Assembly: GCA_029781975.1 (NCBI GenBank)
Contig: JAKOVQ010000025.1
Span: 15,001-79,000 of the forward strand
DNA: 64,000 nt
Source of the DNA: Acidobacteriota bacterium
GTDB taxonomy: Bacteria > Acidobacteriota > Thermoanaerobaculia > UBA5066
Direction of reading: 5' to 3'
The translations under genes and the position numbers were made by a program. Position 1 is the stretch's first letter, and each line of letters starts with the position of its first letter. Below, piece after piece: positions 2,648 to 21,014 of the stretch. The notes below the pieces were generated by a model. It did not search any database, had not been told where the DNA came from, and was given only the letters and a program-made list of their open reading frames with translations.

Positions 2648-5005
2648 GTGACCCGCGCATCCGCCGGCCCGAGCCGCACGATGGTCCTCCCGGCGGCCGC
2701 CTTGCTCGGCCTCCTCCTCGCCGCCGCCGCCCTCCTTCCGTGCCTCGGGGGAGGGGTACCGGGGCGGGGCGACCTCGCGGACTTCTTCTGGCCGATGAAG
2801 ACCTACACGGCCTCCTGCTGGAAGGCCGGGAGGATTCCGCTCTGGAACCCCCTGTCGGGCTGCGGTGAGCCCTGGCTCGCCCAGCTGCAGTCGGGGGCCG
2901 TGAACCCGGCGGACCTTCCCTTCCTCCTCCCCTGGCCCTGGGGCCCGCTCGGGGCGACGGCGCTCCTCGTCGTCGTCGCCGCGACAGGGATGGCCGCGTG
3001 GCTCCGGAGGCTCGGCGCCTCGCGAGCGGGCTCGCTCGTCGCCGCGGGCGTCTACGCGGGCGGAGGGTCCTTCCTCTCCCTGATCCCCTTCTACAACAAC
3101 GCCGGGACGGCCGCGTTCCTGCCGTGGCTCTTCGCGGGCGCGGACGGCCTGGCCCGCGGCGGGAGCCCGGTCCCCTTCGCGGTGTCGGTCGGCCTCGCGT
3201 TCCTCGGGGGCGAGCCCGCGCTCGCCCTGGCGGGGTGCGCCGCCGCCGCGGTCGTGGGCCTCGCGACGCGCCGCGAAGGGGAGACGGTCCCCGAGGCCCG
3301 TCTCCCGGCGATCCGGCGCCTCCTGGTCGGCCTCGTCCTGGGGCTGGGCCTGGCCGCCGCGGCGCTCGCTCCCTTCGGAGCCCTTCTCCTCAGCTCGGGA
3401 CGCCTCGCCACCACGACGCGAGCCGAGGCTCTCGCCCGGCCGGTGGGGCCGTCCGACCTCGCCGACCTCGTCCTGCCCCCGTCGTCCGATGCGACCCGCG
3501 CCCTCGCTGCGGGCAGGGGCGACTACCTCGTCACCCTCGCCCTCGGCCCGGCCCCGCTCCTCCTGGCGGCGGCGGCTGCGGCAGGCTTCCCCGGCCGCCG
3601 GCGCCTCCTCTGGATCCTCGCGGCCGTCGGAGCTCTGGCCGGCCTCGTGGCGATCGGGGGACGGGGGCCGCTCCTCCCCCTCCTCGTCGACGCGGGCCTC
3701 TGGAAGGGGCTCCGGTTCCCCGCACGCTGGTTCGTCTTCACCCATCTCGCTCTCGCCCTGGCGGCCGGCGCGGGGCTCGACGGCTGGCTCTACGGCCGGT
3801 TCTCCTCCAGGACCGCCCCGGGAGAGGCGGCCGGCGACGCGGCGGACCCCGTCGAGGTCGAGGCGAGGAGGGGAGCGAGGGCCGCCTGGCTCTTCGCGGG
3901 CGCCTTCATCGCCACGACGGCAATCGCCCTCGTCGCGGTCCTCGCCGTCCCGGCGATCCGGGCCTCCCGAGACTCCCGCCGCGCGTGGCTCGCGTGCGGA
4001 GCCGCGGGAGTCGCCGCGCTCGCCGTGGGCGCCGCTCGCGCGCGCCGGGAGCGGGGTCCGGGAGCCTGGGCCGGCCTCGCTGCGGCCGCCGCGCTCGCAC
4101 CCCTGCCGTTCTTCTCCCGGGACGCGCTCGCGCCCGTCCCGGGCCGGGGACTCCTCGAGCCGCCCCCCATCGTGGCCGACCTCGCGCGGGACCACCCCGA
4201 GGGGCGGGTCTTCTCCCCGGTCGCCGGGGACCGGGACCTCCTCTCGGCGTGGTCGATCGGGGGAGCCGGGACCTGGAGCGCGGAGGTCCCCCTCCGGTCG
4301 ATGCGCGCCGTCGCGGGCTACTCGAACCTCCTCCCGGGGATCTCGACGGCCACGTCGCCCTCGCCCCTCCCGGACCCCCGTCGGCTCCGGCTCCTCGGCG
4401 TGGCGCTGGCCGGTGGCGACCCGGCCCGGATCCTCGGCCTGGCGGACGTCCGCTGGCTCGTCACGCCGTTCCCGACCTCGATCGCCGCGACCCGCCTGGA
4501 CCGGCGGGACGGGGACCTCCGCCGCTACCGCCTCTCGACCTTCGCCGGCCGCGTCTACAGCGCCTTCTCGGCGCGGGTCGCCACCGACGACGAGGCCTTC
4601 GACCTCCTCCGCCGCGGGGCGGTCGACCCGCAGAAGACGGTCCTCCTCGCGCCCGGGTCCCCTCCGGTGCAGCTCCCGGGGAACGCCCGCGCGGGCGGGT
4701 ATGCGCTGAGCCGGGTCCGCCGCGATGAGCCCGAGCTGACGGAGGTCGAGACGGACGCCTCCGAGCCGTCCCTCCTCGTCGTGACGCGGACCTGGGACGC
4801 GGGGTGGTCGGCGCGGGTGGACGGCCGGCCGGCGCCCCTCCTGCGCGCCCAGCTCGCCTTCCAGGCGATCCCGGTCCCGGCGGGACGGCACACCGTCCTC
4901 CTCGTCTACCGCCCGCTCACATTCCAGGCGGGGGTCCTCGTCTCGGGCGTCTCCCTCCTGCTCCTCGCGGGGCTGGCCCTCGCCGGCTCGTCCCGGCGGA
5001 GCTGA
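2648..5005 (+). CDS. YfhO-like polytopic membrane protein (GT-C-type fold)
   Basis: A 785-residue integral membrane protein with many hydrophobic segments through about residue 450 and a C-terminal soluble domain. The N-terminus has the YfhO pattern of an acidic residue near a first-loop FFWP, then PLWNPLSGCGEP. The end has the YfhO beta-domain signature WDAGWSARVDGRPAP followed by a final membrane helix. YfhO-family proteins are thought to act in cell-envelope glycosylation (Listeria YfhO glycosylates lipoteichoic acid). The substrate here is unknown. GTG is the only start near the -10 hexamer and gives a signal-anchor-like N-terminus. The next gene begins 2 nt after the stop, so they are probably co-transcribed. 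Confidence 0.8.
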   Translation: MTRASAGPSRTMVLPAAALLGLLLAAAALLPCLGGGVPGRGDLADFFWPMKTYTASCWKAGRIPLWNPLSGCGEPWLAQLQSGAVNPADLPFLLPWPWGPLGATALLVVVAATGMAAWLRRLGASRAGSLVAAGVYAGGGSFLSLIPFYNNAGTAAFLPWLFAGADGLARGGSPVPFAVSVGLAFLGGEPALALAGCAAAAVVGLATRREGETVPEARLPAIRRLLVGLVLGLGLAAAALAPFGALLLSSGRLATTTRAEALARPVGPSDLADLVLPPSSDATRALAAGRGDYLVTLALGPAPLLLAAAAAAGFPGRRRLLWILAAVGALAGLVAIGGRGPLLPLLVDAGLWKGLRFPARWFVFTHLALALAAGAGLDGWLYGRFSSRTAPGEAAGDAADPVEVEARRGARAAWLFAGAFIATTAIALVAVLAVPAIRASRDSRRAWLACGAAGVAALAVGAARARRERGPGAWAGLAAAAALAPLPFFSRDALAPVPGRGLLEPPPIVADLARDHPEGRVFSPVAGDRDLLSAWSIGGAGTWSAEVPLRSMRAVAGYSNLLPGISTATSPSPLPDPRRLRLLGVALAGGDPARILGLADVRWLVTPFPTSIAATRLDRRDGDLRRYRLSTFAGRVYSAFSARVATDDEAFDLLRRGAVDPQKTVLLAPGSPPVQLPGNARAGGYALSRVRRDEPELTEVETDASEPSLLVVTRTWDAGWSARVDGRPAPLLRAQLAFQAIPVPAGRHTVLLVYRPLTFQAGVLVSGVSLLLLAGLALAGSSRRS

Positions 5006-5007
5006 CG

Positions 5008-6186
5008 GTGTCCGCCGAGAGCCTCGTCCTCCACCTCTTCACATTCGCGCTCGGGGCGGTCGTCGGATCGTTCGCGAACGTCTGCATCCACAGGCTCCCG
5101 CGCAGGGAGTCGGTCGTCCGTCCCCGGTCGCGCTGCCCGGCCTGCGGAGCTCCGATCGCGGCCTGGGACAACGTCCCGGTCGTCTCGTGGCTCCTCCTGC
5201 GCGGGCGCTGCCGGCGGTGCCGGGCCCCCATCTCGATCCGCTACCCGTTGATCGAGGCGACCCTGGGCGCCGCCTTCGTCCTCGCGACGGTCCGGCACGG
5301 GTTCGGGCCGGAGGCCGTCGCGGCAGCCATCCTGGCGACGGCGGCCGTCATCCTCGCCGCGACGGACCTCCAGGCCCGGGTCCTCCCGGACGAGGTGACC
5401 TACGGCGTTCTCGCCCTGGGGCTCCTCCTGGCCGCGGCGCGGGACCTCCCCGACGCTCGGAAGGTCGGCGCGGGGGCGCTGGCGGGGCACCTCCTCCCCT
5501 CGGTCGCGGGCGCCGCGTTCGGCGCGGCCCTCCTCCTCGGGGTCGGGCTCGCCTACCGCCTCGTCCGGGGCGCCGAGGGGATGGGGCTCGGCGACGTGAA
5601 GATGATCGCGATGGGCGGAGCGTTCGTCGGGCCGGCCGGGGTCCTCGTCGCCCTCTTCGTCGCCTCGGTCTCGGGCGTCCTGGCGGCGGGGGCCCCGGCT
5701 CTCGTCAGGGCCCTGCGCTGGCGGCTCGCCTTCCGCTCCGCGCGCGGCTCAGAGGAGCGCGCCCGCGACGAGGGAGAGCGCCACGGCGCCCTCCTCACCG
5801 CCGGGGGGACCGTGGTCGCGGCCGCGGGCCGGAGGTGGCGCGAGATCCCGGGGAACGCCCCGCCCGGCGCGAAGCTCTCGGAGGCCGGGCCGGTCGCCCG
5901 CCCCGTCGTCGCCTTCGTCCGTCTCGCGCGCCGGAGGTCCCGGAGAGGCGAGGCGACCTCCTTCGGCCGGCTCGCGGTCGAGGACGAGACCGGAGAGTTC
6001 TTCCGCGTCCTCGCGGCCCGGGCCGAGGCGCTCCCCGGCGGCCTCCTCGTCCTCCTCGGCCGCGTCGACGTCCCGTTCGGGGTCTTCCTGGCGGGGGGGA
6101 TCCTCGTGGCCTACGAGTGGGGAGGCGCCGCCGTCGACCTCCTCACGCACGGCCTTCCGGTCCCCGGGCGGGGGCTCCTCCCGTGA
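5008..6186 (+). CDS. pilD: Prepilin peptidase / N-methyltransferase with internal insertion
   Basis: An inner-membrane A24 aspartyl protease that cleaves and N-methylates type IV prepilins. The N-terminal domain has the zinc-type Cys pairs C43/C46 (CPAC) and C68/C71 (CRRC). The catalytic aspartates are D120 (ATDLQARVLPDE) and D196 in GLGDVK. The protein is 392 residues against about 290 usually. Roughly 110 extra, charged residues sit between the GLGDVK helix pair and the conserved final segment (PFGVFLAGGILVAY), which resembles PFGPFLALGA of other PilD proteins. The GTG start at 5008 gives the expected short N-terminus (VSAESLVLHLFTF); upstream in-frame sequence overlaps yfhO and looks non-native. 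Its substrates are probably the pilins encoded at 11.8-15.0 kb. Confidence 0.92.
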   Translation: MSAESLVLHLFTFALGAVVGSFANVCIHRLPRRESVVRPRSRCPACGAPIAAWDNVPVVSWLLLRGRCRRCRAPISIRYPLIEATLGAAFVLATVRHGFGPEAVAAAILATAAVILAATDLQARVLPDEVTYGVLALGLLLAAARDLPDARKVGAGALAGHLLPSVAGAAFGAALLLGVGLAYRLVRGAEGMGLGDVKMIAMGGAFVGPAGVLVALFVASVSGVLAAGAPALVRALRWRLAFRSARGSEERARDEGERHGALLTAGGTVVAAAGRRWREIPGNAPPGAKLSEAGPVARPVVAFVRLARRRSRRGEATSFGRLAVEDETGEFFRVLAARAEALPGGLLVLLGRVDVPFGVFLAGGILVAYEWGGAAVDLLTHGLPVPGRGLLP

Positions 6187-7979
6187 CGGCGGCACCGGGC
6201 CCCCTGGAGCGCGAGGTCCGACGTTTCGTCGTCGGGGGGCTCCTCTTCGTCTCCTTCCTGGCGGGGGCGGCCCTCGTCGACCTGAACCTCACGACCCGCT
6301 GGGCCGTCGCGCAGAGCGAGGAGCGCCTGGTCGCGGAGGTCCGGGCCATCGGCGCCCGGGTGGAAGGGGCGGGGGAGTCGGCCGACGTCCTCACCGCCGA
6401 CCCGCTGGCGGTCCGGCTGCTGCACGAGTTCGGACCCCAGCAGGCCGCCGTCTTCGACCCCGGCGGGGTCCTCCTCCAGAATGCGGCCTTCCTTCCGGAC
6501 GCCGCGCGCGTCCCCGACCGGCTCCCCGCGGCCGACCGGCCGGTGGGAGGGGCCGCGCAGGTGACGCGCTTCGACCAGGAGGGGCGCCCGGCCGTCTCGG
6601 TGGCGATTCCCATCGGCGGCGGGCGGAGGATCCTCCGCGCGGTCTACGACGCCACGCCCCTCTTCGCGGCCGAGCGGACGGTCCGGATCCTGACGGTGGT
6701 CGTCCCCGCGGGGGTCGCGCTCCTCGTCTTCCTCGTCATCCCCTCCCTCCGCCGCCTCGCCCGCCCGATGGACGCCCTCGCCGAGACCGCCCGCACAGCC
6801 GAGGCGTTCGTCCCGCGAGGAGAGGGGAGCGGGCAGGCGCCCGACGACGCCGTCGCCGCCTTCGCGCGGACGATCGAGGAGCTGAGGGCGCGCACCGGCG
6901 AGCTCGAGGCGCTGAGGCGACGGGAGCAGGAGCGCGCGGACGCGCTCGCCATCACGGCCGAGACGCTGGTGAGGTCCCACCCCGGGGGGCTCCTCGTCGT
7001 CGGCGCCAACGGCACCCTGACGGAGGCGAACGGGCCCGCCCTCGCGGCCCTCGACCTCTCCCGCGACGCGCTCGGCGGGCCGGCTTCCGAGCGGCTGGCC
7101 GACTGGCCCGTCCTCGCGAAGGCGGTCGCGGCCGCCCTCGCCGGGACCCCCACCCTCGCGGCGGAGGCGGTCCGGGGCGAGGCGACGGGGGCGCGCCTCC
7201 TCGCGGTGACGGCGGTCCCCGTCGTCGATGCGGCGGGGCGCACCCTCGGGGGGCTCGTCTTCCTCGAGGACCGGACGGCCGTCACGCGGCTCGAGCGCGA
7301 GCTCGCGGCCCGGCGCCAGCTCGCGGCCCTCGGCGAGATGTCCGCGGGGATCGCCCACGAGTTCCGGAACGCGACGCTGACGATCCTCGGGTACGCGCGC
7401 CTCGCCGCGGCGGAGGCCGACGCCGAGGCCCGGGCCCGCCACCTCGCGGGCGTCCGCGCGGAGGCCGAGCACGTCGTGCGCGTCACCGGCGACTTCCTCC
7501 TCTTCGCGCGCCCCGAGCGGCTCGTGCCGGGGCCCGTCGACCTCGGCGAGCTCGTGGCGGACGTCCTCGCCGAGGAGCGGATGGCCGCGCGCGAGACCGA
7601 GCTCGTGCAGGACGGGAGCTACGGGGAGGCCGTCGTCGACGCCGCGCTGGTGCGGCGGGCCCTGGTGAACCTCGTCCGCAACGCGCGGGAAGCCGCGGAG
7701 ACGGGGGAGGGCCCCCCCCGCGTGCGGGTGACGGGGGAGAGGCCGCCGGACGGGTCGAGCGTCCTCAGGATCGAGGACAGCGGCCCCGGCGTTCCTCCCG
7801 AGGCGGCGCGGACCCTCTTCGTGCCGTTCGCGTCGACGAAGAAAGGGGGGACCGGGCTCGGCCTCTCGCTCGTGGCGAAGATCCTCGACCTCCACGGCGG
7901 GGCGGTCGCGGTCGGCCGCTCGGACACCCTCGGCGGCGCCTCGTTCGTCGTGACCCTTCCGCCGGCCCCGCGGGCCTGA
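6183..7979 (+). CDS. PAS-containing sensor histidine kinase, PilS/NtrB-like
   Basis: A 598-residue membrane sensor kinase. Visible in order: a first TM near residues 15-35, a periplasmic segment, a second TM near 165-185 followed by a HAMP-like linker, a coiled coil, a PAS-like domain (about 255-375), a HisKA box with phospho-acceptor H392 (AHEFRN) and an HATPase domain with NLVRNAREAAE, a GPGVP G1 box and GGTGLGLSL G2 box. It overlaps the prepilin peptidase stop by GTGA, so translation is coupled. The H-box and G-boxes are closest to the NtrB/PilS class, which pairs with sigma-54 activators. The likely partner is the NtrC-type regulator at 19.7 kb, beyond the pilus genes. The input signal is unknown. 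Confidence 0.85.
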   Translation: MTAAPGPLEREVRRFVVGGLLFVSFLAGAALVDLNLTTRWAVAQSEERLVAEVRAIGARVEGAGESADVLTADPLAVRLLHEFGPQQAAVFDPGGVLLQNAAFLPDAARVPDRLPAADRPVGGAAQVTRFDQEGRPAVSVAIPIGGGRRILRAVYDATPLFAAERTVRILTVVVPAGVALLVFLVIPSLRRLARPMDALAETARTAEAFVPRGEGSGQAPDDAVAAFARTIEELRARTGELEALRRREQERADALAITAETLVRSHPGGLLVVGANGTLTEANGPALAALDLSRDALGGPASERLADWPVLAKAVAAALAGTPTLAAEAVRGEATGARLLAVTAVPVVDAAGRTLGGLVFLEDRTAVTRLERELAARRQLAALGEMSAGIAHEFRNATLTILGYARLAAAEADAEARARHLAGVRAEAEHVVRVTGDFLLFARPERLVPGPVDLGELVADVLAEERMAARETELVQDGSYGEAVVDAALVRRALVNLVRNAREAAETGEGPPRVRVTGERPPDGSSVLRIEDSGPGVPPEAARTLFVPFASTKKGGTGLGLSLVAKILDLHGGAVAVGRSDTLGGASFVVTLPPAPRA

Positions 7980-7985
7980 TCGCGG

Positions 7986-9092
7986 TCAGGCGGCCGGCGC
8001 CCCCGCCCCCGCGCCCGCGGCCTTCCTCTTCTCGACGAGCGCCCGGAACGACTCCTTGTCGATCGCCTTGTCGAACGCCTCGTCGAACTCCACGACGTCC
8101 CCGGCGACGAGGTCCGCCAGCGAGTGGTCCATCCCGATCATCCCGGCCGAGCGGCCCGTCTGGATCAGCGAGTTGACCGTCGCCGTCTTCCCCTCGCGGA
8201 TGGCGTTGGAGAGGGCGGCGCTGCCGCGCAGCACCTCGAAGGCCGGGATCCGGCCGTTCGGCTTGCGCCGGAGGAGGACCTGCGCGACGACGCCCTTGAG
8301 CACCTCGGCGAGGACGGTCCGCACCTGCTCCTGCTCGTCGGTCGGGAAACCGTCGATGAGGCGGTCGATCGCCTTGGCGGCCGAGTTCGTGTGGAGCGTC
8401 CCGAAGACGAGGAGGCCGGTCTCGGCGGCGTGGAGCGCCATGCTCATCGTCTCGAGGTCGCGCAGCTCGCCGACGAGGACGACGTCGGGGTCCTCGCGCA
8501 GGGCGGCCTTCAGGGCGTCGGCGATCGTCGGGGTGTCCGGGCCGAGCTCGCGGTGGGTGACGATCGACCGGTGCGGGACGTGGACGAACTCCACCGGGTC
8601 CTCGATCGTGACGATGTGGTACGAGCGGGTCCGGTTGAGGCGGTCGATCAGCGCGGCCAGCGTCGTCGACTTGCCCGATCCGGTCGGGCCGGTGACCAGG
8701 ACGAGCCCGCGCGCGATCTTCCCGACGTTCGCCACCATCTCGGGCAGCCCCAGCTCCTCCACCGTGAGGACGCGCGGCGGGATCATCCGGAGGACCGCGG
8801 CGGCGCCCCACTCCTGGCGGAAGAGGTTGACGCGGAAGCGGGCCCGGTCGCCCATGGCGTAGGCGAAGTCGCCGTCGCCGGTCTGTCTCCACTCGTTCCA
8901 GACGCGCTCCGGCGTGACGGGCTTCAGGAAGCCCTCGAAGTCCTTCTCGGTGATCGTCTGCCACCGGATCCGCTCGAGCCGCCCGTCCACCCGCATGATC
9001 GGCGGGGAGCCGACCGCCAGGTGGAGGTCCGACGACTTCTTCTCGAGGATGATCCGGAGGAGGTGGTCGATCCGATGCACGCCCTCGCTCAT
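7986..9092 (-). CDS. pilT: PilT-type twitching motility (pilus retraction) ATPase
   Basis: A 368-residue hexameric secretion-type ATPase that depolymerises type IV pili. All family motifs are intact: the N-terminal SDLHLAVG, Walker A GPTGSGKSTT, the Asp box, Walker B with VGELRD, the His box GTLHTNSAAK (H234) and the retraction-specific AIREGK near the C-terminus. The N-terminus MSEGVHRIDHLLRIILEKKSSD is typical. It overlaps the upstream HEAT-PilT gene by ATGA, so both are on one minus-strand transcript. The C-terminus is an Ala/Gly-rich tail. It is convergent with the sensor kinase, with only 6 bp between the stops. Confidence 0.93.
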   Translation of the reverse strand: MSEGVHRIDHLLRIILEKKSSDLHLAVGSPPIMRVDGRLERIRWQTITEKDFEGFLKPVTPERVWNEWRQTGDGDFAYAMGDRARFRVNLFRQEWGAAAVLRMIPPRVLTVEELGLPEMVANVGKIARGLVLVTGPTGSGKSTTLAALIDRLNRTRSYHIVTIEDPVEFVHVPHRSIVTHRELGPDTPTIADALKAALREDPDVVLVGELRDLETMSMALHAAETGLLVFGTLHTNSAAKAIDRLIDGFPTDEQEQVRTVLAEVLKGVVAQVLLRRKPNGRIPAFEVLRGSAALSNAIREGKTATVNSLIQTGRSAGMIGMDHSLADLVAGDVVEFDEAFDKAIDKESFRALVEKRKAAGAGAGAPAA

Positions 9093-11608
9093 GCGAACGC
9101 CGCCCTTTCCTCGGAGAGGAGCTTCTCGAACGGCTCCTTCTTCGCCGCCCGGTCCATGGCCACCTCCGGGCTGACCTTCCCCTCCTCGGCGAGCTTCAGG
9201 AGGAACTGGTCCATCGTGTTCATCCCCGCCCCGGCGCCGGTCTGGAGGATCCCGGGGAGCTGGAACGTCTTCGACTCGCGGATGAGGGCCCCGACCGCCT
9301 GCGTCCCGCGGAGGATCTCGAACGCGGCGACCCGCCCGTCCCCGTCGGCGCGCGGGAGGAGGGCCTGCGAGATGACCGCCTTGAGCGACTCGGAGACCAT
9401 CATCCGGATCTGACCCTGCTGGCCCGGCGGGAACGAGTTGATGATCCGGTCGACCGTCGCCGTCGCCGTCGTCGTCGAGAGGGTGGCGAAGACGAGGTGG
9501 CCGGTCTCGGAGGCGGTGATCGCCAGCGAGATCGTCTCCAGGTCGCGCATCTCGCCCACCATGATCACGTCGGGGTCCTCGCGGAGCGCCGACTTCAGGG
9601 CCCGCGCGAACGACGCGGTGTGGTGCGGCACCTGCCTCTGGTTGACCAGGCTCTCCTTGTTGCGGTGGACGAACTCGATCGGGTCCTCGACCGTGATGAT
9701 GTGCCCCGGGTGCGTCTCGTTCACGCGGTCGACGAGCGCGGCGAGAGTCGTCGACTTGCCGCACCCGGAGGGCCCCGTCACCAGGACCAGGCCCTGGGTG
9801 TAGCGGCAGACCTCCCACGCCGACTCGGGGAGGCCCAGCGTCTCGAGCCGCGGGATCTCCTGGGGAATGGCGCGGAAGACGGCGTCGAGCCCCTGCCGCT
9901 GCGTGAAGAAGTTCGCGCGGAACCGGCCGAGGCCGGGGACCTTGACGCAGACGTCGAGGTTCTTCCGCTCGGCGAGGAGGGCGCGCTCCTCCTCGGTCAG
10001 GACCTCGCGGATGAGCGCCTCCGCCTGCTCGGCGGTCACGGGGGGGACGTCGACCTTCTCGAGGACGCCGTGCATCCGCCGGTGCGGGACGAACCCCGTG
10101 GCGAGGTGGAAGTCGGACGCGCCGCGCGCCACCGTGTCGGCCAGGAGGTCGACGAGCCTCACCGGCCCCCCGGACGAGAGGTCCAGCCTCTTCGCCTCCA
10201 GCCTGGGGAACGGGATCGCCTCCCGCGCGGCGTCCCCCTGGAGCTTGCCGACGAGGCGCCGCGCCTTCTCGCGCACCTCCAGCCCCACCGCGTGGTGGCG
10301 GGCGATGCTCTCGAGGACCGGGGCGACGCGCGGCTCCTTCACGCCGAGCGCCGCCAGCGCGTCCAGGATGTCGAGCTGGTCCGCCGGCCGCTCGTGCGAC
10401 GCCTTGAACGCCTCGAAGAGGGGGCCGGCCGCCCGCGGGTCGCCGAGGTCCCCCAGCGCCGGGGCGACGGCGAGCATCTTGTACGGGTCCCTGAGGGCGT
10501 CCACGAGGACCTTCAGCACCTCCTCGCGCCCGGTGCCGAACCTCCCCAGGTTCTCGATGGCCCGCGACCTCACCCGCCAGTCGGCGTCGTCGACGAGCTT
10601 GATCCACGTCGGGACCGCTCGGGGGTCCATCAGGAGGAGCGAGAGGTCGAACGCGTCCTTCGCCACGTCCCCCTGGGACTCGTGCGCGAACGCGAGGAGG
10701 CCCGGGACGAAGTCGGGCATCTCCTTCGAGATCGTCTCGAGCGCCCGGTCGCGGATCCAGGGGAAGCTCCCGCGGAACGCCGTGACGAAGAGACGGGCCA
10801 CCTCCCTGGGGGGGATTCCCTTCAGGAGGGAGACGGCGCCGGACCGGACGCGGGGGTTCCCGTCCCCGAGGAGCGGGAGGACCTCGTCGCGGTAGTCGCC
10901 CTTCGACGCGGCCACGAGCTTCCGGAGCGCCGAGAACGCGGCGTCGACCACCCGGCGGGACGGGGAACGGGCCATCCCCAGGACGGCGGGGACGTACTCC
11001 TCCTTCGGGTTGCGCTCGAGGACGGAGAGAGCGCCGATCCGGATGTCGTCGTCCTCGTCGGAGAGGAGCGGGAGGGCCAGGCCTGCCGCCTCCGCCGCGA
11101 CGCCCTGCCCCTGGAGCTCGGCGACCGCCTTCAGCGCGCGGGAGCGGAGCTGAGAGCCCGGGTTGTCGAGGACCTGCCGGTAGATCGGGATCGACCGCTC
11201 GAGCGGAAGCTCGCGCGCCATCTCGAGCGCGACGAGCTTCGCGAAGTCGTCGCCCCGCTCCGCGATGGAGGCGAGGAAGGACCCGAGCTCGGGTCCCGCC
11301 ACCTCCTTGAGGAAGCGCTCCACCGCGCGGCGGGCCGCCTCGGACCGGGTCCTGCAGAGCGGGAGCAGCGCGTTCAGGACCTCGCGGTCCCCGGCCCGCC
11401 GCTTCAGGATCTCGAGCCCGGCTGCCCGGATCTCGGGCGTCGGGTCGACGGCGGTCCAGACGACCTCCTCGAGCTCGAGGCCCGACGTCGCCCGGAACCT
11501 CTCGACGAGGTCGCGCTTCTGCGCGTCGTCCTTCCACTGGTGGGCGCGAAGCTGGGCGACGACCGGCGGCTCGGGCCTCAGGCCCTTTCGGATCTTCTCG
11601 AACACCAC
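9089..11608 (-). CDS. HEAT-repeat / PilT-like ATPase fusion
   Basis: An 839-residue protein. Residues about 1-475 form a series of HEAT-like helical repeats (for example DPTPEIRAAGLEILKRR and DDADWRVRSRAIENLGRF). Residues about 480-839 are a full PilT/PilU-type ATPase with SDFHLATG, Walker A GPSGCGKSTT (about 612-621) and VGEMRD. Two retraction motifs are altered. The His box reads ATLSTTTATATV, with S711 where PilT has His, and the AIRxGK motif reads LIRESK. This resembles a PilU-like accessory ATPase that works with the canonical PilT encoded next to it. The HEAT domain may dock to another pilus or polarity protein (inference). The ATG start has no strong Shine-Dalgarno. Confidence 0.85.
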   Translation of the reverse strand: MVFEKIRKGLRPEPPVVAQLRAHQWKDDAQKRDLVERFRATSGLELEEVVWTAVDPTPEIRAAGLEILKRRAGDREVLNALLPLCRTRSEAARRAVERFLKEVAGPELGSFLASIAERGDDFAKLVALEMARELPLERSIPIYRQVLDNPGSQLRSRALKAVAELQGQGVAAEAAGLALPLLSDEDDDIRIGALSVLERNPKEEYVPAVLGMARSPSRRVVDAAFSALRKLVAASKGDYRDEVLPLLGDGNPRVRSGAVSLLKGIPPREVARLFVTAFRGSFPWIRDRALETISKEMPDFVPGLLAFAHESQGDVAKDAFDLSLLLMDPRAVPTWIKLVDDADWRVRSRAIENLGRFGTGREEVLKVLVDALRDPYKMLAVAPALGDLGDPRAAGPLFEAFKASHERPADQLDILDALAALGVKEPRVAPVLESIARHHAVGLEVREKARRLVGKLQGDAAREAIPFPRLEAKRLDLSSGGPVRLVDLLADTVARGASDFHLATGFVPHRRMHGVLEKVDVPPVTAEQAEALIREVLTEEERALLAERKNLDVCVKVPGLGRFRANFFTQRQGLDAVFRAIPQEIPRLETLGLPESAWEVCRYTQGLVLVTGPSGCGKSTTLAALVDRVNETHPGHIITVEDPIEFVHRNKESLVNQRQVPHHTASFARALKSALREDPDVIMVGEMRDLETISLAITASETGHLVFATLSTTTATATVDRIINSFPPGQQGQIRMMVSESLKAVISQALLPRADGDGRVAAFEILRGTQAVGALIRESKTFQLPGILQTGAGAGMNTMDQFLLKLAEEGKVSPEVAMDRAAKKEPFEKLLSEERAAFA

Positions 11609-11829
11609 GGCTGCCTCCGTGAAGGGCTATCGTAAACGACGGCGCCGGTCCGCCGCCGCCGGGGCTGTTACGCAAGGTGACACCTCGATCTCGGGGCAGT
11701 CGAGGGGTCGACGGACACGTCTCCTCCAACACGCTCCTGGGGAGGGGGTTGCGGCGACGAGGCTCGCCGGGCGTCGCTCTTGCAATGCTCGCCGACAGAG
11801 CCTGCCGTGCACGCTCGGGGAGGGACGAG
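11609..11829. other. Intergenic region between divergent pilT operon and minor-pilin operon
   Basis: 221 bp with no credible gene. It must hold the start signals of both the minus-strand ATPase pair and the plus-strand pilin genes. A sigma-54-like site is seen for the pilin side. On the other side, a GG/GC pair with 9-nt spacing (11672-11684, minus) is one base short of a proper sigma-54 promoter. Confidence 0.7.
11769..11785 (+). promoter_or_regulatory. Candidate sigma-54 (RpoN) promoter for the minor-pilin operon
   Basis: GGGC at 11769-11772 and TTGCA at 11780-11784 place the invariant GG (11770-11771) and GC (11782-11783) exactly 10 nt apart, as RpoN requires. The -12 box is perfect and the -24 box is partial. 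The predicted start is about 35 nt before the pilin ATG. The window also encodes an NtrC-type activator at the end of this operon, consistent with PilR/RpoN control. No enhancer site was identified. Confidence 0.45.
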
Positions 11830-12513
11830 ATGGTCGAAAGGACTCAAGGGCCGCCGGCGAGAACGCGCCGGATCCGGAGGGCCCGGGGCTTCAGCCTCCT
11901 GGAGATCCTGGTCGTCATCGCGATCCTGGGGATCGCCCTCATGCTCGGCCTGGCCGGGGTCTCCTCGACCCTCAAGCGCCAGCGCCTCGCCTCGGCCGCG
12001 GACGACCTCCGGACCATCGCGCAGCGAGCCCTGACGGAGATGCAGAACCGGAACGTCGCGACGTACCTGGTCTTCGGCAAGTACGTCACGGACGTCGGAA
12101 CCGACGTGGCCGTCGCCCTCGACACGAACAACAACGGAAGGATCGAGATCGACAAGAACGGGGACGGCCTCTTCGACGACGCCAACAACGACGACACGGT
12201 CCTCTGGCGCGTCCGGCTCCAGCCGGAGATCGCCCTCTCGACGACGGCGGTCAACGCCCAGTCGTTCAACGCGCAATGGGCGAAGCCCGCGTCCGGATCG
12301 AACTCGGCCGTCCTCCTGTGCGACTTCCTCGGCCGGACGATGCGGCCGGACGTCTCCGGAGCGCCGCCGCTCGCGGCGCCGACGCAGGTCACGGCCGTGG
12401 CGACCGTCCAGATGACACACCGCGACATGATCTCGGGGGCCCTTACCCCCCTGACCGTCTACACGCTCAGCATCAACCCGCTCTGGGCCGCCACCGTCCA
12501 GAGGACCCCCTGA
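11830..12513 (+). CDS. GspH/FimT-like type IV minor pilin with Ca-binding-like loops
   Basis: A 227-residue prepilin. The leader ends at G20, followed by FSLLEILVVIAILGIAL, the classic type III signal with Glu at mature position 5. The ATG is preceded by a good GGGGAGGGACG ribosome site, which fixes the start. Residues 98-119 contain two overlapping Asp/Asn-rich loops (DTNNNGRIEID and DKNGDGLFDD) that follow the DxNxNGxI / DxDxDG pattern of EF-hand and thrombospondin-3 calcium loops. It is the first gene of the minor-pilin run and probably part of the pilus-tip priming complex with the PilY1 protein downstream. Confidence 0.85.
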   Translation: MVERTQGPPARTRRIRRARGFSLLEILVVIAILGIALMLGLAGVSSTLKRQRLASAADDLRTIAQRALTEMQNRNVATYLVFGKYVTDVGTDVAVALDTNNNGRIEIDKNGDGLFDDANNDDTVLWRVRLQPEIALSTTAVNAQSFNAQWAKPASGSNSAVLLCDFLGRTMRPDVSGAPPLAAPTQVTAVATVQMTHRDMISGALTPLTVYTLSINPLWAATVQRTP

Positions 12514-12535
12514 GGCGGAAGGGAGGAGAGTGGCC

Positions 12536-13075
12536 TTGAGACGATTCCGAACCGGCCGGGGACCCCTGGAGAGGGGGAGCACCCTCATCGAGGTCCTGAT
12601 CGCGATGGCGATCCTCGCCCTCCTGATGGTGGGGGTCCTCCAGCTCTTCTCCGTCGCCCTCGTCACCGACGTCGGCTCCGCGGCCAGGACCGACATGACG
12701 ATGAAGGCGCAGCAGACGGCCGAGAACCTGCGCTACCTGCACTTCCTCCGCTCCCGGTCGACTCCGCTCCCGGCCGGCACCGGGATTCCGGCGACCATCA
12801 CGGACGGCGCCCAGGTGAACCTCCCGTGGGATGGAACGGAGGCGGGCGAGCCGAGCTGGGCCTACTGGGGCCCCGCGGGGGCGAACGTCATGGAGCGCGC
12901 GAAGGGGCCGTACCGGGTTTCGTACCAGTACGCGGCCTCGACGACGCCGAACTACTGGATGGTCACCGTCACGGTCCAGTCGGCCCAGTCCGGCGGGGCG
13001 TCCCCGACGACGAGCTATCTCGGCTCGCAGGCGCAGGCCAAGAGGGTGGATTATGTCTTCCAGGTTCACAACTAG
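12536..13075 (+). CDS. PilV-like type IV minor pilin
   Basis: A pilin of 179 residues. The leader ends at G14, followed by STLIEVLIAMAILALLMVGVL with Glu at mature position 5. The start is a choice between GTG at 12530 and TTG at 12536. The AGGAG at 12524-12528 is 7 nt from the TTG but only 1 nt from the GTG, so the TTG is preferred. The C-terminal part (PAGTGIPATITDGAQVNLPW and SYQYAASTTPNYWMVTVTV) looks like a beta-rich pilin head. The next gene starts inside this one (23-nt overlap in another frame), indicating translational coupling. Confidence 0.8.
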   Translation: MRRFRTGRGPLERGSTLIEVLIAMAILALLMVGVLQLFSVALVTDVGSAARTDMTMKAQQTAENLRYLHFLRSRSTPLPAGTGIPATITDGAQVNLPWDGTEAGEPSWAYWGPAGANVMERAKGPYRVSYQYAASTTPNYWMVTVTVQSAQSGGASPTTSYLGSQAQAKRVDYVFQVHN

Positions 13076-14360
13076 ACGCCGCGGTCAGCGGGGGTTCTCC
13101 CTCGTCGAGATGGTCGTCTCGCTCCTGATCCTCGTCCTCGTGATGATCGTGGCGCTGTCGCTCCTCTTCGCGATGAAGTCGTTCGCGGAGCGGCAGCAGG
13201 TGAAGACCGCCCCGCGGCAGACGTCCCGCCGGGCAGCCGACTACCTCAGCTACTTCATCGCGGGAGCGACGGACCTGAACGACGCGGCGACCCCCCGGAG
13301 CCCGAACGCCATCGTCACGTGGTACTCCAAGCCGGGTCCCGGCGGGGCGCCCGTCCTCAAGCAGGCCTCCTACAACGACCTCACGCCGGCGCAGAGCGCC
13401 CTGGGCGAGGTCGGGACCGACATCATCACGGTGGCGGTCCCGTCGGGCACCGCCATAGGCCAGTTCGCCAGCTGGCCCGGCGTCGGCAACACGGGGACGG
13501 CCACGATCGACTACCTCGACGGCTGCCCGGACAACGCGACGCTCCAGGCGAACTTCGAGCAGCTGACCGGCGCGCACGTGAACGGGTCGGGGAAGAAGGT
13601 CAGCGAGCTCATGACCGTGGTCGACGCGAACGGCGCCTGGAGCTACTACCGGATCACGAACTACCTCGGCTACACCTGCGGCAGCCTCGACCCCGGGACG
13701 GGAGAGCCGAATCCCGTCCAGGTCTCCTCCGACCCCGCGGGCAACGGGGAGGTCGTCGTGAATCCGCCGGGAGGCCCCGGCGCCCTCGCGGCGCCGGTGA
13801 CCCTGATCGCGGGGATGCGCTTCTACTCGTTCCGCGTCCGCCGGGCGGCGGACGACACCCTGAGCCTCGAGCAGAAGCAGGGGCTCTTCGACCCCGACAC
13901 CGACAACCCGGGCAACGCGTTCGTGCCGATCCTGCCGGACGTCGAGGACTTCCAGGTCGCCTACCTCTACTCGACGCCGCCGGCCGGGGGCGGCACGGTC
14001 TTCAACACGATCGACCCGGCGACCGGGAACGTCGTGCTGGTCGACGACTCGGCGTTCGGAACGAACGTCCACGTCCCCCCGCAGGGGAGCGCCCTCCCGT
14101 GGGACGTCACGAACGTCGCCGGGCTGAGGTTCTCGATCACCTCCCGGTCCGCGGCGCTCCGCTTCACGACGTCGCGGATCTCGGTCCGGCGGAAGACGGC
14201 GACCGAGACGAACGTCCGCCCGGCCTCCGAGGACCGCCCCGCCGGCAACCCCGACGACTACGAGAAGCCGGGGGCCACGACGGGAGCGCGGGTCGGCGAC
14301 TTCGACCACTTCCGGATCACCTCGACGCTCGCCCTGAGGAACAGGATGCTGGGGAACTGA
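13053..14360 (+). CDS. PilW-like type IV minor pilin
   Basis: A 435-residue prepilin. A leader of 14 residues ends in RRRGQRG, followed by FSLVEMVVSLLILVLVMIVALSLLFAM with Glu at mature position 5. The mature protein is much larger than a major pilin and matches the PilW/GspJ class of large minor pilins. Most of the remainder is Gly/Pro/Asn-rich beta-type sequence. The ATG overlaps the end of the previous pilin; AGGGTGGA lies just upstream. It is likely part of the tip complex with the neighbouring PilV-, PilX- and PilY1-like proteins. Confidence 0.82.
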   Translation: MSSRFTTRRRGQRGFSLVEMVVSLLILVLVMIVALSLLFAMKSFAERQQVKTAPRQTSRRAADYLSYFIAGATDLNDAATPRSPNAIVTWYSKPGPGGAPVLKQASYNDLTPAQSALGEVGTDIITVAVPSGTAIGQFASWPGVGNTGTATIDYLDGCPDNATLQANFEQLTGAHVNGSGKKVSELMTVVDANGAWSYYRITNYLGYTCGSLDPGTGEPNPVQVSSDPAGNGEVVVNPPGGPGALAAPVTLIAGMRFYSFRVRRAADDTLSLEQKQGLFDPDTDNPGNAFVPILPDVEDFQVAYLYSTPPAGGGTVFNTIDPATGNVVLVDDSAFGTNVHVPPQGSALPWDVTNVAGLRFSITSRSAALRFTTSRISVRRKTATETNVRPASEDRPAGNPDDYEKPGATTGARVGDFDHFRITSTLALRNRMLGN

Positions 14361-14364
14361 AGCC

Positions 14365-15018
14365 ATGAAGACGTCTCGAACCGCCCTCCTCCGTGGCCCC
14401 GGGCACCGTCGGGGAAGCGCTCTCATCATCGTCCTCCTCGTCGTCCTGGTCCTCACGATCGTCGGCATCGGCGTGGCCTTCTTCAGCTCCACGGAAGACA
14501 GGACGTCGGGCAACGCGAAGATGAGCCGAGTCGGCTTCTACGCCGCCGAGGCCGGCCTCCGCCTCGGCGAGTCGGTCGTCACCGGCTTCGCCCAGGGGAA
14601 CAACGGCTCGGTCGGGATGCTCCTGAACGGGACGCCGGCGAACACCTACCTGCCACCGGGGGGCGGGCGCCCCGCGTACATCCTGGTCCTCAACGGCGTC
14701 ACCTACAAGGACGTCGTCCTCACCCAGACGCTCGGCGACGCGAACCAGCGGCCGATGTACTCGCTCTACGTGAGGAACAACCAGGAAGACGTCGCCGGCG
14801 GGGACAACGGCGACACCGACTTCAAGATCAACCTGATCGCGGTCGGCCAGATGGTCCTCGTCGACTCGGGCGGGAACCCCGTCCGCGACGCGAACGGACA
14901 GCCGACCGTCGGCATCACGAAGGTCCTCGAGGAGCAGCTCGACGCGAACCCCTCGGGCTCGGCGGCCGCGACCCAGAAGGGCGCCAACGCCGGAGGCACC
15001 GGAGGAGGCGCGAAGTGA
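14365..15018 (+). CDS. pilX: PilX-like minor pilin
   Basis: A 217-residue protein with the PilX N-terminal pattern: basic leader ending at G17, then SALIIVLLVVLVLTIVGIGVAFFSS and the conserved YAAEAGL segment. As in the PilX/GspK class, mature position 5 is not Glu (it is Ile). It starts 4 bp after the PilW-like gene. The C-terminal 25 residues are Gly/Ala/Asn-rich and probably disordered. The pilX-pilY1 order matches known type IV pilus clusters. Confidence 0.8.
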   Translation: MKTSRTALLRGPGHRRGSALIIVLLVVLVLTIVGIGVAFFSSTEDRTSGNAKMSRVGFYAAEAGLRLGESVVTGFAQGNNGSVGMLLNGTPANTYLPPGGGRPAYILVLNGVTYKDVVLTQTLGDANQRPMYSLYVRNNQEDVAGGDNGDTDFKINLIAVGQMVLVDSGGNPVRDANGQPTVGITKVLEEQLDANPSGSAAATQKGANAGGTGGGAK

Positions 15019-15059
15019 GACACCCCAACGACACGGCACGTGCCGAGGAGAGAACGACG

Positions 15060-18000
15060 ATGCGAACCCCCACCAGGCACCTCCTTCCCTTCGCGGGGGC
15101 CGCCCTCGGCCTCCTCGTCGCGGCCGTCGCCCCCCGGGCCGCCGCCCAGCCGTACACCGAGGGGTACGACCCGCTCCGGCAGATCACCGCCCAGATCCAG
15201 AAGGCGAACCTCCTGATCGTCGAGGACGTGACGGGGTCGTTCGCCTGGTGGCCGTCGTCGAACAGCACGCCGACCAGGAGCGAGAACTCGTTCGGGTACC
15301 TCGTCTGGGGGGGCGCGAGCGGCGGGAGCTGCGACAAGGATCACCCCAGCCTCTGCCGCACGTGGGACTACAAGCTGACGTTCGAGGCGCCGTCGCGGAT
15401 GGCGACCGTCAAGAACGTCCTCGGCAACTCCGTCGCCCTCGTGACCAACTACGCTCCGCCAGCCGTCTCCGGGCGTTGGTCCCGAACCGCGACGAGCGGG
15501 TCGGTGGACACGAAGATCACCTGGACGTTCCGGTACGATTACGGCAGCGGCAACACGGGGACCGCGCCGGGAGTCCCGTTCACGCCGTACGAGACGATCA
15601 CCGTCCCCGGGACGAACCCGGCCTTCACGGTCACGAACTTCCCGATCGTGAGGGACGGCGCCTGCACGGTCGGGACGTGCTCGTACAGCCCGCCGAAGGA
15701 CATCGTCGCCCTCAACGCGTCCCGCGTGAACTGGGGCCTCATGACGTACTCGACGGACCTGATCACGACCCGGGTCGCGATCGACACGACCGACGCGAAC
15801 AAGGACCTCCAGAAGCTCGTCGAGTACTTCGTTCCCAAGGGGGCCCAGGGAGCCGTCACCGGGGTCTCCGGGCTCTCCGCTTCCGGCAGCACGAACACCC
15901 GCACGGTGCTGAACAACCAGAATGCCCAGAAGGTGATCCTCGACGCGGCCAGGGCGGACCCGAAGGTCATCAATAATTGCAACCGCCCGTACGGCGTCAT
16001 CCTCGTCACGGACGGCCTCTCGAACTCGGCGAACCCGAAAGGCGGGAACTGGATCTCCCCCTGCACCAACATGCCCTGCGACGGCGGGTCCTCCGGCTAC
16101 GACTGTCCCTCGAGCTGGACCCTGTTCGCGGCCGACGGAGCAAACACGCTCTACACGGGCACGATCTCGAACGGCGTGAAGATCCCGGTCCGGACCTGGA
16201 CCATCGGCGTCAGCTCGGCGGTCGGCCCTTGCGAGCTCGACTTCATCGCCTACATGGGCCGCACCGACGCGAACGCCCCGGACGGGAACGCGGGGTTCTC
16301 CCCGTACGACCCGGACAAGCCCGGCCCACCCCCGGTCAAGGGGAACAACCCCTACATCCCCGATCCGAACGCGACCGATCCGACCACGAACTACGACGGT
16401 CCGACCGGGCAGGAGAAGTTCTACAAGAACACCTCGCTTCCCTACGACCCCGACAACAAGACGTACACCCACGGTCACAACGCCTTCTTCGCCACCACGG
16501 CCGACACGATCGCCGACGCCATCGCCGCGATCGTGAACGCGACGGCGACCGGCGACTACGCGACGAACGCGCCGGTCTCCGGCAGCGCGGCGGCCCTCGC
16601 CAACCTCGTATTCGTCCCCGCCACGGGCTTCCCGTCCTGGCAGGGGCACTTCTACGCGTTCGACACGAGCCTCGACCCGACGGACGGGAACTACCTGAAC
16701 TGGGAGGCGGGCGACGTCCTCAAGAAGGAGACCGACACGGCCGATCGGAAGATCTACACGTGGGACCCGGCGAACGGGAACGCCCTCGTCGAGGTGACGG
16801 TGGCGAACCTCGCCAAGCTCCAGGCGCTGGCCGGGACGACGGCCTTCGACGCGAGCGTCGTCGACTTCGTCCGCGGGAACGACGGGAGCGGGTCGAAGAG
16901 GTCCTGGCTCCTGGGGCCGATGATCAACTCCTCGCCCGCCCTCGTCGCGTCGCCCCAGCCCTGGACGCAGCAGACGGTCACCGACCACAAGGCCTTCCAG
17001 CAGACCTACAAGGGCCGGCCGGCGCTCATCTGGGTCGGATCGAACGACGGGATGCTGCACGCGTTCCGCGCCGCTCCCAAGACTCCGAAGAACGACGAGC
17101 CCCTGGCCGGACACGAGTTCATCGCGCTGATTCCCCCGAGCGTCCTGAACATCCAGGTGACGCTCTTCGACAACTACAAGAAGGACGCCAAGTACCCCTC
17201 CGGGCAGCCCCGCGACAATGCCGACCACATCTACGGCGTCGCGAACTCGCTCCGCTTCGGCGACGTCTACGACCCGACCACGAAGGACTACCGGACGATC
17301 GGCTTCCTCACCCTGGGGATGGGCGGCTCCGAGCTCTACGCCATCGACATCACGAACGTCCCGCCCCCCAACGCGAGCCCCTATCCCTCGGACCCCGTCA
17401 AGGTCCTCTGGTCCAAGAGCAGCGGCGCGAGCACCCTCACCCAGCTCCCCTCCCTCGGCGAGAGCTGGTCGGTCCCGGCCGTCGCCCCGGTCTCGAGCAC
17501 GGAGTGGCGGCTCGTCATGGGAAGCGGCCAGATCCGGTCGAATACCGCGGCGTCACAGGGCACGGGAGTCGGGTTCGTCACGCCGAGGGCCTACGTCCTC
17601 GACCCGAACGACGGGAGCTTCGAGTCGAGCAGCGCGCTGACGAAGCTCTCCAGCCCGGCCCCGCTCGTCGGGGACCAGGCGTTCGCCGACAGCGTCTTCT
17701 TCGACCCGAAGGCGGGGACGTACCAGGAGGACAACGTCGCCTCGCTCGGCCTGCAGGCCGACCTGAACGGGCGGATCTGGTACATCTACGACAGCACGGC
17801 GGGGACCAAGACGTTCGACCAGGCGAAGGTCGGCATCGACGTCTCGACCGACGTCCTCCCCTCGCAGCCCCAGCCGCTCTACTACCCGCCCGCCGCGAGC
17901 GGCTACGGGGTGACCGGCACGGGCTGCGTGGCCTACGCGTTCGGGAGCGGGACGCTCTACGAGACGAGCGACAAGGTGACGGGACCGCAGATCGGCACGA

Positions 18001-18515
18001 ACCCGAACTTCGTCCCCCGCATCTACATCGCGTTGAACCAGAAGGGAACCGCCACGACCAAGATCCCGGCCGGGAACATCACGGCCCACGACCTGAACGC
18101 CACCTTCACGTGGACGGACCCGACGACCAAGCAACCGGTCAGCATCACGCTCGGCAAGCACACGCAGATGACGGCGCCGCCGTTCATCCTCGCCTCGACG
18201 GACCCAGCGAACACGCCGAACACGGCGCTCTTCCTCGTCTACGACCCCGACCTCGGATGCCACGGCAACTCGTACGTCATCGTGGTCGACTTCGATGGCG
18301 ACGCGGGCTGCAAGCCCGCGAACGTGAAGTACACCGTCTACAGCGCAGGCGAAGGGGCCGCGAGCGGCTTCACGATCGCGGGGAAGAAGGTCCTCGTCGC
18401 CAAGAGCGGCATCGGCGAAGGCCAGCGGGCCGGCCTCTACGAGCCGCCGAACATCTCGGCGGCCATCGGCAAGAACCCGCTGCCGAAGGTCAAGTGGTGG
18501 AAGGAGCTCAAGTAG
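15060..18515 (+). CDS. pilY1: PilY1-like pilus-tip adhesin / assembly factor
   Basis: An 1151-residue exported protein. The ATG at 15060 is preceded by a GAGGAG site and gives a clean signal peptide ending in RAAAQ. An upstream in-frame GTG (15015) would add 15 polar residues and is less likely. The N-terminal half contains a von Willebrand A-like part (ILVTDGLSNSANPK). The C-terminal half is the PilY1 beta-propeller (LIWVGSNDGMLHAFRA, then YGVANSLRFGDV and GMGGSELYAIDITN). PilY1 proteins sit at the pilus tip, promote pilus extension and take part in adhesion and surface sensing. A clear Ca-binding loop like that of Pseudomonas PilY1 was not recognised. It ends the minor-pilin operon; a terminator follows. 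Confidence 0.88.
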   Translation: MRTPTRHLLPFAGAALGLLVAAVAPRAAAQPYTEGYDPLRQITAQIQKANLLIVEDVTGSFAWWPSSNSTPTRSENSFGYLVWGGASGGSCDKDHPSLCRTWDYKLTFEAPSRMATVKNVLGNSVALVTNYAPPAVSGRWSRTATSGSVDTKITWTFRYDYGSGNTGTAPGVPFTPYETITVPGTNPAFTVTNFPIVRDGACTVGTCSYSPPKDIVALNASRVNWGLMTYSTDLITTRVAIDTTDANKDLQKLVEYFVPKGAQGAVTGVSGLSASGSTNTRTVLNNQNAQKVILDAARADPKVINNCNRPYGVILVTDGLSNSANPKGGNWISPCTNMPCDGGSSGYDCPSSWTLFAADGANTLYTGTISNGVKIPVRTWTIGVSSAVGPCELDFIAYMGRTDANAPDGNAGFSPYDPDKPGPPPVKGNNPYIPDPNATDPTTNYDGPTGQEKFYKNTSLPYDPDNKTYTHGHNAFFATTADTIADAIAAIVNATATGDYATNAPVSGSAAALANLVFVPATGFPSWQGHFYAFDTSLDPTDGNYLNWEAGDVLKKETDTADRKIYTWDPANGNALVEVTVANLAKLQALAGTTAFDASVVDFVRGNDGSGSKRSWLLGPMINSSPALVASPQPWTQQTVTDHKAFQQTYKGRPALIWVGSNDGMLHAFRAAPKTPKNDEPLAGHEFIALIPPSVLNIQVTLFDNYKKDAKYPSGQPRDNADHIYGVANSLRFGDVYDPTTKDYRTIGFLTLGMGGSELYAIDITNVPPPNASPYPSDPVKVLWSKSSGASTLTQLPSLGESWSVPAVAPVSSTEWRLVMGSGQIRSNTAASQGTGVGFVTPRAYVLDPNDGSFESSSALTKLSSPAPLVGDQAFADSVFFDPKAGTYQEDNVASLGLQADLNGRIWYIYDSTAGTKTFDQAKVGIDVSTDVLPSQPQPLYYPPAASGYGVTGTGCVAYAFGSGTLYETSDKVTGPQIGTNPNFVPRIYIALNQKGTATTKIPAGNITAHDLNATFTWTDPTTKQPVSITLGKHTQMTAPPFILASTDPANTPNTALFLVYDPDLGCHGNSYVIVVDFDGDAGCKPANVKYTVYSAGEGAASGFTIAGKKVLVAKSGIGEGQRAGLYEPPNISAAIGKNPLPKVKWWKELK

Positions 18516-19652: not shown

Positions 19653-21014
19653 ATGCCCGCCGAGATCCTCCTCGTCGAGGACCGGGAGTCCCTCCGGGCG
19701 ATGCTGGCCGAGACCCTCGCGCGCGAGGGGTACCGCGTCGAGCCGGTCGCCTCGGGTGACGAGGCGGTCCGTCGGCTCGCAGAGGGACGGCGATACGCCC
19801 TGGTCCTGACCGACCTGAAGCTCCCCGGCGCGGACGGCCTCGCCGTCCTCGACGCCGCGCTCGCCTCCGACCCCGCCCTTCCGGTCGTCGTCCTGACGGG
19901 CTTCGGAACCGTGGAGACGGCGGTCGCGGCGATGAAGAAGGGGGCCGCGGACTTCCTGAGCAAGCCGGTCGACATCGACCTCCTGCTGCTCCTGGTGGCG
20001 CGGCACGTCTCGGCGCGCCGGGCCGCGGTCGCCCGCGCCCTCCTCGCGGAGGAGGCGGGGCTCTCGGGGATGCCCGCGATCCTCGGGAGCTCCCCGGCCC
20101 TCGCGGACGCGCTGGAGAGGATCCGGCGCGCGGCGGCGTCGGACGTGACCGTCCTCCTGACGGGGGAGTCGGGGACGGGGAAGGAGCTCTTCGCCCGGGC
20201 GGTCCACGCCCTCTCCGCGCGGGCGACCGGCCCGTTCGTCGCGGTGAACGTGGCGGCGCTCCCCGAGGGGCTCGTGGAGAACGAGCTCTTCGGCCACGAG
20301 CGCGGCGCCTACACCGGGGCGAGCGAGCGTCGCGCGGGGCGCTTCGAGCTGGCGGACGGAGGGACGCTCTTCCTCGACGAGATCGCGGAGCTCCCGCTCC
20401 CTGCGCAGGCCAAGCTCCTCCGGGCGGTCGAGGAGCGGACCTTCCTCCGCGTCGGGGGGACTACGCACGTGTCGGTCGACGTGAGGATCGTCGCGGCCAC
20501 GAACCGCGACCTCCTCGCCCGCGTGCGGGCCGGAGCGTTCCGCGAGGACCTCTACTACCGCCTCGACGTCTTCCCGGTCCGTCTCCCTCCGCTCCGGGCC
20601 CGCCGGGAGGACGTCCCGGCGCTCGCGTGCGAGTTCGCCCGCCGCGTCGCGCGCGAGAGGAAGGAGAAGGAGCCCGAGCTCTCGCCCGCGGCGCTCGCGA
20701 AGCTGCAGGCTCACGACTGGCCGGGAAACGTCCGCGAGCTCCGGAACGTGGTCGAGCGGGCGGTCCTCCTGGCCTCCGGCGGGACGATCCGGCCGGCGGA
20801 CCTCGTCCTCGGCGCCCCCGGCGACCCGCAGGCGGCGCTCCCCTCGCTCGAGGGGACCCTCGACGAGGCCGCCGAGAGGTGGCGCCGGGCGGGCGAGGCC
20901 GCGCGGATCCGGAAGGCCCTCGACGAGACCGGGGGAGACCGGTCCGCCGCGGCCGAGGCCCTGGGGGTCCCGCTCCGCCGGCTCTCCCAGCGGATGAAGG
21001 AGCTCGGGATCTAG
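19653..21014 (+). CDS. NtrC-family response regulator, PilR-like sigma-54 activator
   Basis: A 453-residue three-domain regulator. The receiver domain has acidic residues E9/D10, phospho-acceptor D54 (VLTDLKLPG) and Lys in SKPVD. The AAA+ domain has Walker A GESGTGKE, the sigma-54 contact loop GAYTGA, Walker B LFLDEIAE and the arginine-finger region. The C-terminus is a Fis-type helix-turn-helix ending at KELGI. It is downstream of the pilin operon; its probable sensor is the PilS/NtrB-like kinase at 6.2 kb, and a likely target is the sigma-54-type site at 11.77 kb. Its stop overlaps the convergent selA stop region by 4 bp. Confidence 0.9.

Follow-up and report, generated by a model that had tools for sequence, protein, structure and literature searches.

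A PilT-family ATPase with an N-terminal HEAT-repeat solenoid is encoded beside a second PilT motor in Acidobacteriota and Myxococcota

Why would a PilT-family pilus ATPase carry a long helical repeat domain in front of its motor, and why would its gene stand directly before a second pilT? The locus that raises these questions belongs to an Acidobacteriota bacterium of the class Thermoanaerobaculia (assembly GCA_029781975.1, contig JAKOVQ010000025.1), of which we analyzed a stretch of 64,000 nucleotides, positions 15,001 to 79,000 of the forward strand, referred to here as the window. RpoB agrees with this phylum: that of the genome shares 68% identity with an Acidobacteria RpoB, in the range seen for other classes of the phylum (65-68%), and at most 64% with those of the other named genomes compared. 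The gene in question, HEAT-PilT, is a single ORF (Table 1) that begins with GTG, has GGAGG just 5' of this start, and is preceded by an in-frame TAG six codons upstream. A long ORF at 9497-11635(+) runs antisense to it and appears to arise from the high G+C content.

Table 1. Features of the HEAT-PilT locus and its surroundings, in window positions.
Feature	Position	Strand	Basis
Prepilin peptidase PilD (A24), true start inside the ORF	4804..6186	+	Pfam, tblastn
PAS/histidine kinase in a PilS-like place, neighbour conserved within own family	6183..7979	+	Pfam, tblastn
Partner PilTb, 368 aa, ATGA overlap with HEAT-PilT gene; His box GLLVFGTLHTNSA without H222, H229 kept	7986..9092	-	TIGR01420, alignment
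HEAT-PilT fusion gene, 839 aa, first of the motor pair	9089..11608	-	ORF, RBS, Pfam/NCBIfam, orthologues
AIRNLIRE-like motif AVGALIRE, residues 771-778	9275..9298	-	Sequence motif
HEAT-PilT His box GHLVFATLSTTTA: H704 (PaPilT H222) kept, H229 position is Ser711	9464..9502	-	Alignment
Walker B end and catalytic Glu, VGEMRD, residues 684-689	9542..9559	-	Sequence motif
Walker A GPSGCGKSTT, residues 612-621	9746..9775	-	Sequence motif
PilT N-terminal (PAS-like) domain, residues ~485-582, including conserved arginine segment	9863..10156	-	TIGR01420 match, model strands 499-581, Foldseek to PilT4
Flexible linker, residues ~460-481	10166..10231	-	pLDDT <50 in AlphaFold model
HEAT-repeat solenoid, residues ~15-462	10223..11566	-	Pfam HEAT_2/HEAT and AlphaFold helices
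Divergent minor pilin/PilY1 genes: three N_methyl proteins in place of FimT, PilV, PilW; PilX; PilY1	11677..18515	+	Pfam, tblastn of neighbourhoods

The N-terminal part is a HEAT-repeat protein by both score and model. Pfam HEAT_2 matches 3 stretches well above its cut-off (E 1.5e-30; 105.7 bits vs 27.7), and the AlphaFold model places ~29 helices between residues 2 and 462 as a helical solenoid, followed by the linker at 460-481 and then a full PilT fold (mean pLDDT 81, pTM 0.46, from a shallow 18-sequence alignment of the window proteins and related loci). The motor part matches T2SSE (E 3.1e-42) and, over residues 485-824, NCBIfam TIGR01420 (PilT/PilU) with 430.3 bits against a curated cut-off of 319.1, while Foldseek aligns it to 351 of the 353 residues of PilT4 (6ojx; TMt 0.93); score and fold thus place HEAT-PilT solidly in the PilT/PilU family. 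Because the TIGR01420 match, the model, and Foldseek all cover a full PilT, the PilT N-domain has been retained and the HEAT part is an addition in front of it. The initial annotation was therefore right about a complete PilT part and a long helical repeat N-terminus, but not about the latter standing in place of a short N-terminus, and its reservation that the HEAT part might align to the usual PilT N-domain does not apply, as that domain is separate and complete behind the HEAT part.

Compared with characterized PilT proteins (TIGR01420; PaPilT 3jvu, GmPilT4 6ojx), HEAT-PilT is alike in N-domain, ATPase core, Walker A, Asp box (EDPIE), catalytic Glu, and the AIRNLIRE-like motif, with ~45-49% identity in the matched part. 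It differs in the ~480 residues with the HEAT solenoid in front, and in the second His-box histidine, which is Ser in the window protein and N, D, S, or Q in many orthologues. The open-access literature, to which our search was confined, yielded no relevant paper on HEAT repeats with PilT or twitching motility. This agrees with the initial annotation, which could name no described class with this architecture, and its novelty is provisional.

The gene behind HEAT-PilT, which overlaps it by the ATGA noted before (9089-9092), encodes the partner PilTb. With 417.6 bits against the TIGR01420 cut-off of 319.1, its earlier designation as a canonical PilT holds at the level of the family, but PilTb is not fully canonical because the first His-box histidine is absent (Leu at the H222 position; His-box positions are given in P. 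aeruginosa PilT numbering), and its arginine segment reads FRQEWG. The pairing is strict: among 48 HEAT-PilT loci, 44 could be evaluated, and in 43 of these a second PilT comes next on the same strand. The two genes usually overlap or lie some tens of bases apart. The distance from the HEAT-PilT stop to the start of the second PilT domain is mostly within ~85 bases, with ~630-870 in 4 loci (L038, L039, L192, and L249). At the sole unpaired locus (L133), HEAT-PilT is followed downstream by PilC, an MshEN-containing PilB/MshE, and later a secretin. One partner, from a Myxococcaceae MAG (L193:9171-10958), has an N-terminal extension of ~230 residues that is repetitive, Pro-rich, and apparently coiled-coil. 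Elsewhere, a Candidatus Poribacteria locus (L117:5992-10410) has four pilT genes in a row.

The fusion is widespread. Of 28 related HEAT-PilT ORFs, 27 extend over the full length in a single reading frame (822-846 aa) and the other is cut by a contig end; their identity to the window protein (36-63% overall) is 58-63% in the same family, 44-47% in the same order, and 36-38% in other families of the class. Two more Acidobacteriota families outside this class also have HEAT-PilT, and in the phylum as a whole the full-length type occurs in 16/396 sampled genomes, with a partial match in 3 more (ORFs of 814-932 aa). In Myxococcota, the HEAT profile matched in 33/235 sampled genomes at E <= 1e-30, and all 10 loci inspected are HEAT-PilT fusions. 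A HEAT homologue was found in 0/240 Verrucomicrobiota genomes, in a search without a positive control in that phylum, and the Thermodesulfobacteriota search was nearly empty, with two partial matches. Myxococcota also have a second, longer HEAT-PilT type (~930-1115 aa; L194:7346-10216, L236-L244, and L246) whose genes likewise have a second PilT next to them downstream, without H222 in every His box that is readable; the sole member of this longer type in our tree, L194, falls outside the main HEAT-PilT clade. In the class of the window genome, a HEAT-less relative of HEAT-PilT with a second PilT still alongside (L151:8651-9988) has likely lost the HEAT part.

A tree of 135 PilT domains (SH-aLRT support; a quick method without bootstrap, which leaves the deeper branching order tentative) recovers a clade of 39 HEAT-PilTs plus one HEAT-less member (SH-aLRT 96) and a separate clade of 26 partners (99). 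The HEAT-PilT clade is sister to the first members of HEAT-less pilT pairs (98), and the partner clade to the second members (94), these pairs coming from Planctomycetota, Verrucomicrobiota, Desulfomonile, and others. Since the nearest relatives of both clades are members of HEAT-less pairs, the sequences suggest that an old pilT pair later gained the HEAT part. These sister lineages resemble the HEAT-PilT pairs in that their second PilT also lacks H222, and differ in having no HEAT domain.

The pair also recalls PilT/PilU—i.e. two adjacent retraction-family ATPases, one perhaps dependent on the other—and the initial annotation had suggested a PilU-like helper. Membership in the PilU family was rejected, as PilU (9n32) groups with its relative L050_6295 (SH-aLRT 100), away from both window proteins. 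Furthermore, the AIRNLIRE motif is missing in PilU (PMC6762196), whereas it is recognizable here as AVGALIRE and ALSNAIRE. The motif losses of the window proteins are others than those of PilU, and PilU lacks a HEAT domain.

The His boxes of the two motors have changed in opposite ways. All 39 HEAT-PilTs carry H222, which no second PilT has (0/26 partners and 0/10 from HEAT-less pairs); conversely, every one of these 36 second PilTs carries H229, in place of which 21/39 HEAT-PilTs have S, N, D, or Q. The remaining 18/39 HEAT-PilTs keep both histidines, and no member of any pair lacks both. These counts are not independent because they trace to few events on the tree (6 changes for H229 and 5 for H222). 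Walker A, the Asp box, and the N-domain arginines are retained; in seven HEAT-PilTs an Asp takes the place of the catalytic Glu. Neither window protein has both His-box histidines expected under TIGR01420 (Ser711 in HEAT-PilT, Leu for the first His in PilTb), and judging from these motifs standard catalysis may not be a given for either one, though family membership by score and fold holds. In PilB, the gamma-phosphate is in contact with H420, the last His-box histidine, which also touches a Thr in the adjacent subunit, and a role in inter-chain cooperativity has been suggested for it (PMC5424180); on our reading of the motif, H420 would be equivalent to PilT H229. Separately, a PilT-like paralogue in the window genome (G000:C42:146152-147192; L142:8542-10341) has GPAGSGRSTT, with the Walker A Lys changed to Arg, GELDE rather than GEMRD, neither His-box histidine, and a Pro-rich N-terminal part; it is probably a catalytically dead PilT-like protein.

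Planctomycetota have the HEAT part as a separate gene. At one locus (L092), the order is pilT, pilT, and a free 482-aa HEAT protein, which matches the HEAT part of HEAT-PilT with E 3e-90, using a profile built without the L092 protein. A survey of this phylum with a second profile (A2), which includes the L092 protein, returned 13 nearly full-length homologues at E <= 1e-56, while other HEAT proteins score ~1e-28; in 9 of the 13 cases the gene comes immediately after pilT genes in the same orientation, and 1 more is divergent to a pilT. This HEAT subfamily shares its repeat fold with other bacterial HEAT-repeat proteins but is set apart by this large score gap and by being largely tied to pilT loci. 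The occurrence of a module both fused and split is classic evidence for physical association, and here it points to an association between HEAT part and motor. The earlier view of the HEAT domain as a platform that binds another protein gains support from these split genes, with the contact itself presumed. In the tree, the PilTs adjoining the free HEAT gene are of a different PilT lineage, with the second motor from a further clade; because of this, the HEAT part may have any PilT motor as its partner, or some other part of the pilus machine. The same HEAT type is also found joined to a collagen-like repeat, in a Planctomycetota gene that does not adjoin a pilT (L180:5340-8180).

Given these observations, our preferred reading, to which we assign a probability of roughly 0.55, is a type IVa pilus (T4aP) retraction unit with two motors, which a HEAT scaffold would hold in place or target. 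We infer its function, which includes contact of the HEAT part with the motors, the hexamer arrangement, the retraction role, and the division of labour. HEAT-PilT (PilTa) would be a T4aP retraction-type ATPase subunit acting with the PilTb encoded right behind it, and the HEAT solenoid would link the two motors together, or both of them to a common partner at the base of the pilus, the scaffold being supplied fused in Acidobacteriota and Myxococcota or as a separate protein in Planctomycetota. PilTb, which keeps the histidine predicted to contact the gamma-phosphate, would be the likelier main ATP hydrolyser, and PilTa, which tends to lose it, may be a docking, regulatory, or slower motor. 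Counting against the two-motor reading are the HEAT-PilTs that keep both histidines, the small number of tree events behind the loss of H229, the different PilT lineage beside the free HEAT gene, the HEAT-less L151, and the shallow alignment behind the HEAT model. A stronger version, in which a HEAT scaffold subunit, fused or free, would be an undescribed class of type IV pilus component and would join two complementary PilTs, each with a catalytic His box that has become incomplete, into one heteromeric retraction engine, is possible but doubtful.

It is unlikely that PilTa and PilTb alternate in one hexamer, each offsetting the other's missing histidine, with the HEAT arms around the ring. 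The opposite, non-overlapping losses, the strict operon pairing, and a His box that works across subunit interfaces (PMC5424180) would all fit such a mixed ring; however, PilTb lacks H222 universally, even where its partner keeps both histidines, and dominant-negative tests on PilT/PilU argued against mixed rings (PMC6762196). We consider it slightly less likely still that the HEAT part is a positioning or regulatory tether—e.g. to the cell pole or a signalling protein—for motors that otherwise work independently of each other, as PilT homohexamers each employed under its own conditions, in the way of PilT paralogues elsewhere; this fails to account for why the motors are so strictly paired and why their His boxes changed in opposite ways. 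HEAT is nonetheless a general docking fold, a split HEAT gene beside pilT genes is compatible with a tether, and the window genome has 8 PilT-family proteins. Likewise, M. xanthus, whose phylum also holds HEAT-PilT, retracts pili without its main PilT, and its extra PilT paralogues may drive this PilT-independent retraction (PMC5065972).

The genomic setting bears on which filament the preferred two-motor unit would serve. In its own family, the pair stands between a divergent FimT-PilV-PilW-PilX-PilY1 run, conserved here and partly in the order, and the PAS/histidine kinase with PilD. Near all of these genes, at 19653-21014, is a sigma-54 response regulator, and the whole looks like a PilS/PilR-controlled pilus locus. 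Outside this order, most genomes have the pair without recognized pilus genes nearby, which counts against the preferred reading and leaves the pilus served by the pair not fixed; the neighbours in other families (ferrochelatase, helicase, P450, Lon, and integrase) have no common theme. A different role for the unit, driving an MSHA-like pilus, a pseudopilus, or some other filament in place of the main T4aP, would suit the genes behind HEAT-PilT at L133 and the main PilB-PilT genes of the window genome, which are on another contig, but is highly improbable given the T4aP minor pilins and PilY1 next to the pair in its own family. Finally, a misassembly or chance fusion of two genes, a concern of the initial annotation, is refuted and has a negligible chance of being correct, because full-length single-ORF orthologues recur across the class, the phylum, and Myxococcota in dozens of independent genomes.

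An open question is how PilU and other second retraction motors are coupled to PilT (PMC6762196). Co-encoded PilT motors with opposite active-site losses and a covalent scaffold make motor coupling directly testable, and the system would add a cytoplasmic scaffold to the parts of the pilus machine in three phyla.
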